Source of the DNA: Gammaproteobacteria bacterium
GTDB taxonomy: Bacteria; Pseudomonadota; Gammaproteobacteria; GCA-001735895
Direction of reading: 5' to 3'
DNA: 37,444 bases
Assembly (NCBI GenBank): GCA_026989015.1
Contig: JALSKD010000193.1
Span: 1-37,444 of the forward strand
Shown: positions 21,987 through 22,366 of the stretch, in pieces
Position numbering within the stretch: position 1 is the first letter of the stretch
How the letters are laid out: each line of letters opens with the position of its first letter
The notes under the pieces: model-generated
The model's input: only the letters and a program-made list of their open reading frames with translations
Database searches by the model: none
Told to the model about the DNA's origin: nothing
Made by a program: the position numbers and the translations under genes

Positions 21987-22063
21987 CGGGGCGTAGCGCA
22001 GCCTGGTAGCGTACCTGCATGGGGTGCAGGTGGTCGGAGGTTCAAATCCTCTCGCCCCGACCA
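21987..22063 (+). tRNA. tRNA-Pro (GGG)
   Basis: The cloverleaf is 77 nt. Acceptor CGGGGCG pairs with CGCCCCG. The anticodon stem is CCTGC / GCAGG with loop ATGGGGT (anticodon GGG), and the T arm contains GGTTCAAATCC. The discriminator is A and CCA is encoded. Its last 18 nt (22046-22063) are repeated at 22222-22239 as part of the repeat that follows. Confidence 0.96.
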
Positions 22064-22366
22064 ATTCTCCAATAGCACGATCTCCATACCCTCTCGAAGC
22101 CAGTGTCCCCACAGTGGGCGAGAGGGTTTGAACCGATCAGAGGTTCAACCGGATCGCCGGGAGCGATCCGGAATGCGCTTCAGCGCAGTCCGGAGGACCG
22201 CAGGGCAGGATGCCCGGAGTCATCCTCTCGCCCCGACCAATTCTCTGACAGCACGATCTCCATACCCTCTCGAAGCCAGTGCCCCTACAGTGGGCGAGAG
22301 GGTTTGAACCGATCAGAGGTTCAACCGGATCGCCGGGAGCGATCCGGAATGCGCTTCAGCGCAGTC
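22046..22366 (+). repeat. 176-bp-period tandem repeat containing the tRNA-Pro 3' end
   Basis: Block 22046-22190 recurs at 22222-22366 with five mismatches in 145 bp, exactly 176 bp apart; 31 bp at 22191-22221 occur only once. Each copy begins with the last 18 nt of tRNA-Pro, CCA included. Each copy also holds the same set of potential hairpins: CCCTCTCG with CGAGAGGG, GAACC with GGTTC, CCGGATCGC with GCGATCCGG, and TGCGCT with AGCGCA. The unique spacer adds GGGCA with TGCCC. There is no credible ORF. The plan resembles the 178-bp repeats behind E. coli tyrT, which also carry the tRNA 3' end and yield rtT RNA. An RNA product here is inference. Confidence 0.85.
22064..22366 (+). ncRNA. Possible structured trailer RNA of tRNA-Pro
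   Basis: If transcription from the tRNA-Pro promoter continues through the repeats, the trailer would contain nested hairpins in each unit. The mismatches between copies fall in the linker (22070-22073 against 22246-22249) and in the inner loop of the first hairpin, leaving the outer stem arms intact. Processing at the repeated CCA ends could release an RNA of about 170 nt. No terminator was identified after the second copy. Confidence 0.3.

Follow-up and report, generated by a model that had tools for sequence, protein, structure and literature searches.

The window, by which we mean the whole 37,444-nt stretch of DNA that was analysed, contains a tRNA-Pro(GGG) gene with two repeat units directly behind it (Table 1), as is found for tRNA-linked repeats (TLRs), which lie in tRNA or rRNA operons with one to five units per locus. 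Upstream of the tRNA is a 118-codon ORF (21607-21963) that we read as merR-like. The earlier note on this DNA had described two copies 176 bp apart, each opening with the last 18 nt of tRNA-Pro(GGG), and we found the same: 22046-22195 and 22222-22371 are 95% identical over 150 nt with a spacing of 176, and each opens with ATCCTCTCGCCCCGACCA. The five mismatches it counted in the first 145 nt are also where it placed them, three in the linker and two around a hairpin loop (by reading), and one of the loop-region mismatches changes the loop-closing G-C to G-U. The segment 22222-22239 is identical to 22046-22063, so that unit 1 alone has the tRNA-end identity of TLRs, unit 2 being truncated. A search for terminator-like sites from 21900 to 22500 gave none, no ORF of at least 100 amino acids lies inside the 176-bp units and no integrase gene lies between the repeats. 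Elsewhere in the window, ARAGORN calls a tRNA-Gly(ACC) at 32504-32590 on the + strand; this call is inside a long ORF, is unsupported by Rfam and is probably false.

The order within a unit is linker, inverted arm GGGCGAGAGGGTTTGAACC, short loop, GGTTCAA, 73-nt body and ATCCTCTCGCCCCGACCA, with tRNA sequence flanking the hairpin body on both sides. GGTTCAA and ATCC..CCA together make up the tRNA 3' end, which places the body precisely within the T loop of a copied tRNA. We found that 22116-22134 is 95% complementary to 22039-22057 (19 nt), and this inverted arm is predicted to be able to pair with the 3' end copy that starts at 22222 (stem P1). The inverted tRNA-end copies (22116-22134 and 22292-22310) and the GGTTCAA before the body were absent from the earlier note. 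The 176-nt unit folds better than 200 of 200 shuffles (z -3.9).

Table 1. Features at the tRNA-Pro(GGG) locus and related arrays in the same genome (G000).
Feature	Position	Strand	Support
Promoter-like TTCAAA-16-TATAAT of tRNA-Pro(GGG)	21944-21971		
tRNA-Pro(GGG), host gene	21987..22063	+	
Last 18 nt of tRNA-Pro (ATCC..CCA), first direct-repeat member	22046..22063	+	
TLR unit 1, 176 bp: linker, inverted arm, P2, core, tRNA 3' end copy	22064..22239	+	
Unit 1 inverted (antisense) copy of tRNA T-arm and acceptor 3' strand, 19 nt	22116..22134	+	
GGTTCAA, copy of 5' side of tRNA T stem/loop, abuts core	22142..22148	+	
Core 1, 73 nt, four hairpins, between GGTTCAA and ATCC	22149..22221	+	R1 84.9 bits, E 3e-19 (copy included in R1 alignment); covariation
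P3 hairpin CCGGATCG-CCGGGAG-CGATCCGG	22149..22171	+	outer stem covaries across family
Direct copy of last 18 nt of tRNA-Pro, CCA at end	22222..22239	+	
TLR unit 2, 3'-truncated	22240..22371	+	R1 46.5 bits at 22318-22380
Unit 2 inverted arm, 19 nt	22292..22310	+	
Core 2, truncated after about 22366, without closing tRNA 3' end	22325..22371	+	
G000: arrays behind Pro(GGG), Pro(CGG), Ser(GGA), Ser(GCU)			
G000: two cores with tail of tRNA-Ser(UGA) as seen in G001	C88, contig edge		
G000: upstream T-loop form at Gln	C80		
G000: D-loop form at Ser(GGA)	C15:4512		
G000: D-loop form of Ser(UGA) type and its truncated tandem partner	C196, contig edge		
G000: antisense core behind Phe (L083)	C145:9082-9166	-	
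G000: one antisense core inside Pro(CGG) array			

Known since 1978, TLRs still lack an explanation of their origin or function; 22 of them, at ten E. coli loci, show 18-19 nt identity to the end of the upstream gene (PMC8144298). We found that the Rfam model RtT (RF00391) matches 22105-22239 over model positions 1-130 with 29.9 bits, which does not reach its gathering cut-off of 45 bits. Seven further RtT matches are present in the same genome: they follow tRNA-Ser(GCU), tRNA-Ser(GGA) or tRNA-Pro(CGG), or lie at a contig edge where the 3' end is of Ser type. One of these, behind tRNA-Ser(GCU), is above the cut-off (46.2 bits). We also built a covariance model, R1, from 47 non-E. coli cores. 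Checked in E. coli at two loci only, R1 detects all three rttR units together with a further copy in the tyrT-tyrV interval (45.2, 43.4, 40.1 and 30.5 bits) and scores 68.4 bits in the rrnB T1-T2 spacer. The E. coli units start at 725, 903 and 1081 in L179, a spacing of exactly 178, and run in the order inverted arm, GGTTCGA, core, GAGT(A/C), ATCC..CCA, as at tRNA-Pro(GGG); the earlier note's comparison with the tyrT/rtT architecture is therefore borne out. R1 and RtT each detect the other's loci, as expected of a body homologous to the E. coli TLRs. Judged from these sequence comparisons, the repeats behind tRNA-Pro are TLRs of the family of E. coli rttR.

The alignment of 47 cores gives four hairpins. 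Under the named structure, 95.1% of cells were paired as compared to 79.3% after shuffling, 142 cells were changed on both sides as compared to 39, and the covariation score was 0.41 as compared to at most 0.08 in slid versions; the slid control weighs most, because related sequences can beat shuffles without structure. The outer P3 stem, P4 and P6 covary freely and P5 gives little covariation, while the inner part and loop of P3 are invariant because the search pattern fixed them. GGA is present in the P3 and P6 loops. The core is ~73 nt long with the borders GA/CAAA...GGAGTA/ (slashes mark the ends of the core), and on reading it has internal hairpins and no evident terminal inverted repeats. 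The hairpins are thus kept in relatives, and they are those of the TLR family rather than the repeat body's own, as the earlier note had supposed.

In the own genome, a draft of 198 contigs with some arrays at contig edges, R1 has 17 matches at E<1e-3 (the next is at 0.087), and 17 of 17 copies lie in arrays carrying tRNA sequence (Pro, Ser, Gln or Phe; by flank and reading). Copies behind other tRNAs, which had been proposed as a test, are present in this genome at Ser(GCU), Ser(GGA) and Pro(CGG), for example. In the Ser-linked arrays L011, L010, L029 and L045, each unit has a terminator-like hairpin and T run between the tRNA CCA and the core. The upstream D-loop forms L010:1990-2160 (G000:C15) and L081 consist of the tRNA-Ser 5' part to GGTTGA, a variant core and a palindromic closure, and stand in tandem before an intact tRNA-Ser(GGA). 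An antisense core is found in the T loop of a tRNA-Phe fragment in L083 (G000:C145) and in L173, two distant genomes, both at tRNA-Phe.

R1 matches were found in 44 of 57 relatives and in 78 of 399 genomes drawn from the phylum, from the same class and from outside it. A pattern scan of genome contigs (TCGCCGGGAGCGAN{32,62}GAGTMATCC), which by its pattern gives a set biased towards the sequence of the tRNA-Pro(GGG) locus, found 48 loci, nearly all gammaproteobacterial (Alteromonas, Nitrococcus, Dokdonella, Sedimenticola, Thioalkalivibrio and others). An intact tRNA is just upstream in 35 of 49 pattern matches, and the core is usually followed by a repeat of the last 15-19 nt of that tRNA. The remaining matches are mostly upstream forms, in which the tRNA 5' part to GGTTCGA is followed by the core and the 3' half without CCA, and an intact tRNA of the same type comes next. 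One match, in Bathyarchaeota (L030), has no tRNA nearby, looks like chance and was set aside.

We compared the tRNA-Pro locus in 29 family genomes with the merR-like gene. In the same-genus G001 (merR-like protein 97% identical) and in most others, no recognisable repeat follows tRNA-Pro(GGG), and several g3 species have other TLR-like units at the same tRNA-Pro; the Ser(GCU)-linked array is common to G000 and G001. Because the sister species is without repeats at tRNA-Pro, the window array is lineage-specific, so it would have been gained in this lineage or lost repeatedly elsewhere. The earlier note had suggested that the repeats might be very old, which is right for the family and wrong for the tRNA-Pro locus, where they are recent; it had also held that a recent neutral event in one strain would speak against its view, and the normal trailer behind the orthologous tRNA-Pro of G001 comes near to such a case. 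In related species, another TLR-like subtype (GGTTCA/CAAAA..GGCAGGGACTGCC..) with a different P3 loop lies behind the orthologous tRNA-Pro (L133-L139, L142) and is poorly detected by R1.

We collected 245 distinct core sites. The base at -2 is G in 221 of them and the base at -1 is A in 225, so that about 90% of cores directly follow GA, a preference to which the tRNA T loops (TTCGA) contribute. Where the 5' flank is a tRNA body, 18 insertions are in the T loop, 3 in the D loop and 2 in the anticodon loop. In L117/L180 (G054), cores lie in the anticodon loop of tRNA-Ser(CGA) copies (CTCGA/core), as a tandem array upstream of the intact tRNA. In the wider genome set, 41 of 78 classified matches have no tRNA in the fetched stretch, a proportion that applies to stretches of ~1.5 kb in genomes picked for many matches and not to all genomes. 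The core is also found away from tRNAs, so it is not tRNA-specific. Other sites are behind 5S rRNA, behind tmRNA and in YPAL-like sequence (L210/L211). Seven examples are in ERIC sequence, at two positions, one following GGGGTGA and the other GCGAGGA or GCAAGGA, and core-less ERIC copies exist in the same group of genomes, as in the pair of empty GGGGTGA/TTAAGCG and filled GGGGTGA/CAAA...GAGTA/TTTAAGCG. These may be the ~70 bp ERIC insertions described in the literature. As in MITEs, filled and empty sites with precise borders are thus found (ERIC with and without the core; tRNA-Pro of G001 without the repeat).

Some further arrangements were seen. Behind the tmRNA gene in L170 (G166), cores are present in both orientations. 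At several tRNA-less places in G003 (L098, L220, L221, L225), the core is part of a longer repeat (GCCGGTCTGGACTGA/core/..CATAGCTTAAGCTATGG), possibly a further host repeat family. Head-to-tail cores (GGAGTA/CAAAA) in L033, L040, L064, L204 and L206 suggest concatemers or insertion beside an existing core. Insertion into hairpin loops as a general rule failed against controls and was dropped: on folding of the joined flanks, the junction is in a predicted loop at 49 of 177 sites near a tRNA and 23 of 66 without one, as compared to 28-36% in controls, although the tRNA insertion cases do sit in tRNA loops.

In 88 downstream forms, the 19-nt tail copy has a mean identity of 96.7% to the host tRNA. 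The best match of the inverted arm is 11.1/14 to its own host as compared to 9.8/14 to other isotypes, of which it beats 74%; the direction of this effect is clear, but its size is moderate, since T loops all resemble one another. The host-matched arm of an insertion is the main unexplained point, and simple transposition is no explanation for it. No mobilising enzyme was found: no core lies beside any of 20 Y1 transposase genes, within ~1 kb, and Y1 genes co-occur only weakly with the core (Fisher p 0.011, without correction for phylogeny or genome size), so a RAYT/Y1 transposase as mobiliser is not supported.

We propose, with a probability of roughly 0.7, that the tandem TLR array consists of units in which a duplicated 3' part of the host tRNA carries a mobile palindromic core in its T loop, and that it grew by tandem duplication. 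The ~73-nt core with its four hairpins would be a dispersed palindromic DNA element, moving as one unit to judge from filled and empty sites and spreading by insertion 3' of GA, often into tRNA genes; in the array it would stand behind an inverted copy of the same tRNA end, an arm whose match to the host may perhaps come from template switching at the palindrome. Read-through RNA would then form a CCA-ended acceptor/T-arm minihelix, which tRNA-processing enzymes could cut out. We read the tRNA genes as sites that would host a mobile palindromic element, for which a selfish or neutral role at the tRNA-Pro locus is the default reading and a regulatory role of the repeats is possible. More tentatively, and at a little less than even odds, we suggest that one mobile ~73-nt hairpin element (GA/CAAA...GGAGTA/) underlies the E. 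coli TLRs, the rrn T1-T2 small RNAs and the long ERIC forms, enters tRNA T, D and anticodon loops and gains its host-matched arms by an undescribed copying mechanism.

The orientation of the core behind tRNAs is strongly sense, with few antisense cases (L083, L173, L009), and conserved covarying structure together with sense orientation would also fit selection for RNA function. The repeats might accordingly be RNA genes, tRNA-Pro read-through giving a CCA-ended structured small RNA that is cut by tRNA-processing enzymes, binds a regulator and is kept by selection, on the model of the 5S-linked RrB binding CsrA and Hfq. The covariation, the sense orientation of nearly all tRNA-linked cases, the GGA in the P3 and P6 loops and the annotation of rttR as ncRNA in E. 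coli, where RttR as an expressed RNA is a processed transcript of about 171 nt, all speak for such genes, as does the finding that RrA, RrB and RrF are transcribed, processed and bind Hfq and CsrA (PMC8144298). We nevertheless consider this unlikely, if worth keeping in mind, for the array in the window: the repeat is missing from tRNA-Pro in G001 and in most of the other family genomes, many cores have no tRNA in front of them, and the terminator-like hairpin and T run before the core in Ser-linked units (by reading) mean that read-through there would be low. In E. coli, tRNA-linked TLRs have CsrA-binding probability scores <0.01, the original rtT phenotype was retracted and TLRs other than the 5S-linked ones are said to have 'no known function' (PMC8144298).

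Tandem copies between repeats of a tRNA 3' end also resemble attL/attR arrays, and tRNA gene fragments commonly arise when mobile elements integrate into tRNA genes (PMC9897764), so that the 18-nt repeats could be att sites left by a small integrative element with a site-specific integrase directed at the tRNA 3' end. With units of only 176 bp that have no coding capacity, a core that also occurs in D and anticodon loops and in ERIC, and a host-matched inverted arm that att sites do not have, this is very improbable, and we rejected it on coding capacity and distribution. That a TLR-like array arose independently, by convergence, in this lineage, which the earlier note had suggested, might be argued from the different host tRNA and from the RtT score below cut-off at tRNA-Pro(GGG); it is scarcely credible given that two covariance models cross-detect the body and E. 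coli rttR and that E. coli has the same element order, and the cross-detection led us to reject it.

Taken together, the window array is a recently gained member of the known but unexplained TLR family. On the evidence here, the TLR body is a separate structured insertion module that is not made from tRNA. Many Gammaproteobacteria have this module, as does at least one further class of the phylum, and it is found interrupting ERIC elements as well as within the rrnB T1-T2 spacer. The question of what TLRs are thereby becomes a testable one, namely by what means the core moves, why tRNA genes contain it so often and how the arms come to match the host. The array is also a warning that tRNA gene fragments beside tRNAs need not stem from phages or ICEs. 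We found no earlier report linking TLRs, ERIC insertions and tRNA loops in the open-access literature, where a body that is a separate insertion module common to TLRs, rrn spacers and ERIC appears to be without precedent; priority is uncertain.

Compared with the E. coli TLRs (rttR behind tyrT-tyrV, RF00391), the array described here is alike in unit length (176 as compared to 178), tandem arrangement and detectable homology, and in its host tRNA 3' end copy, inverted tRNA-end copy and core in the T loop. In contrast to E. coli, the host is tRNA-Pro, the second unit is truncated, the P1 arm is without the GAG variant of E. coli and many others, and antisense copies as well as forms that precede the tRNA are found in the own genome. 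RrA, RrB and RrF, which are 5S-linked and lie between T1 and T2 of rrn operons, have the same core (the R1 match in the rrnB spacer), and T1 precedes RrB as the terminator-like hairpin precedes the core in Ser-linked units; however, they are behind 5S rRNA and have been shown to be transcribed and to bind Hfq and CsrA (PMC8144298). The internal insertions of ERIC have the core at two positions with the same GA/CAAA...GAGTA border and occur in empty versions, but their host is ERIC and not a tRNA. The Yersinia palindromic elements YPAL/RU-2 are likewise small repeats, palindromic and mobile; their targets show dyad symmetry and are duplicated over 3-26 bp (PMC2229807). YPAL-like sequence is also one of the places where the core occurs; the YPAL body sequence differs from the core, and we claim no membership in that family.
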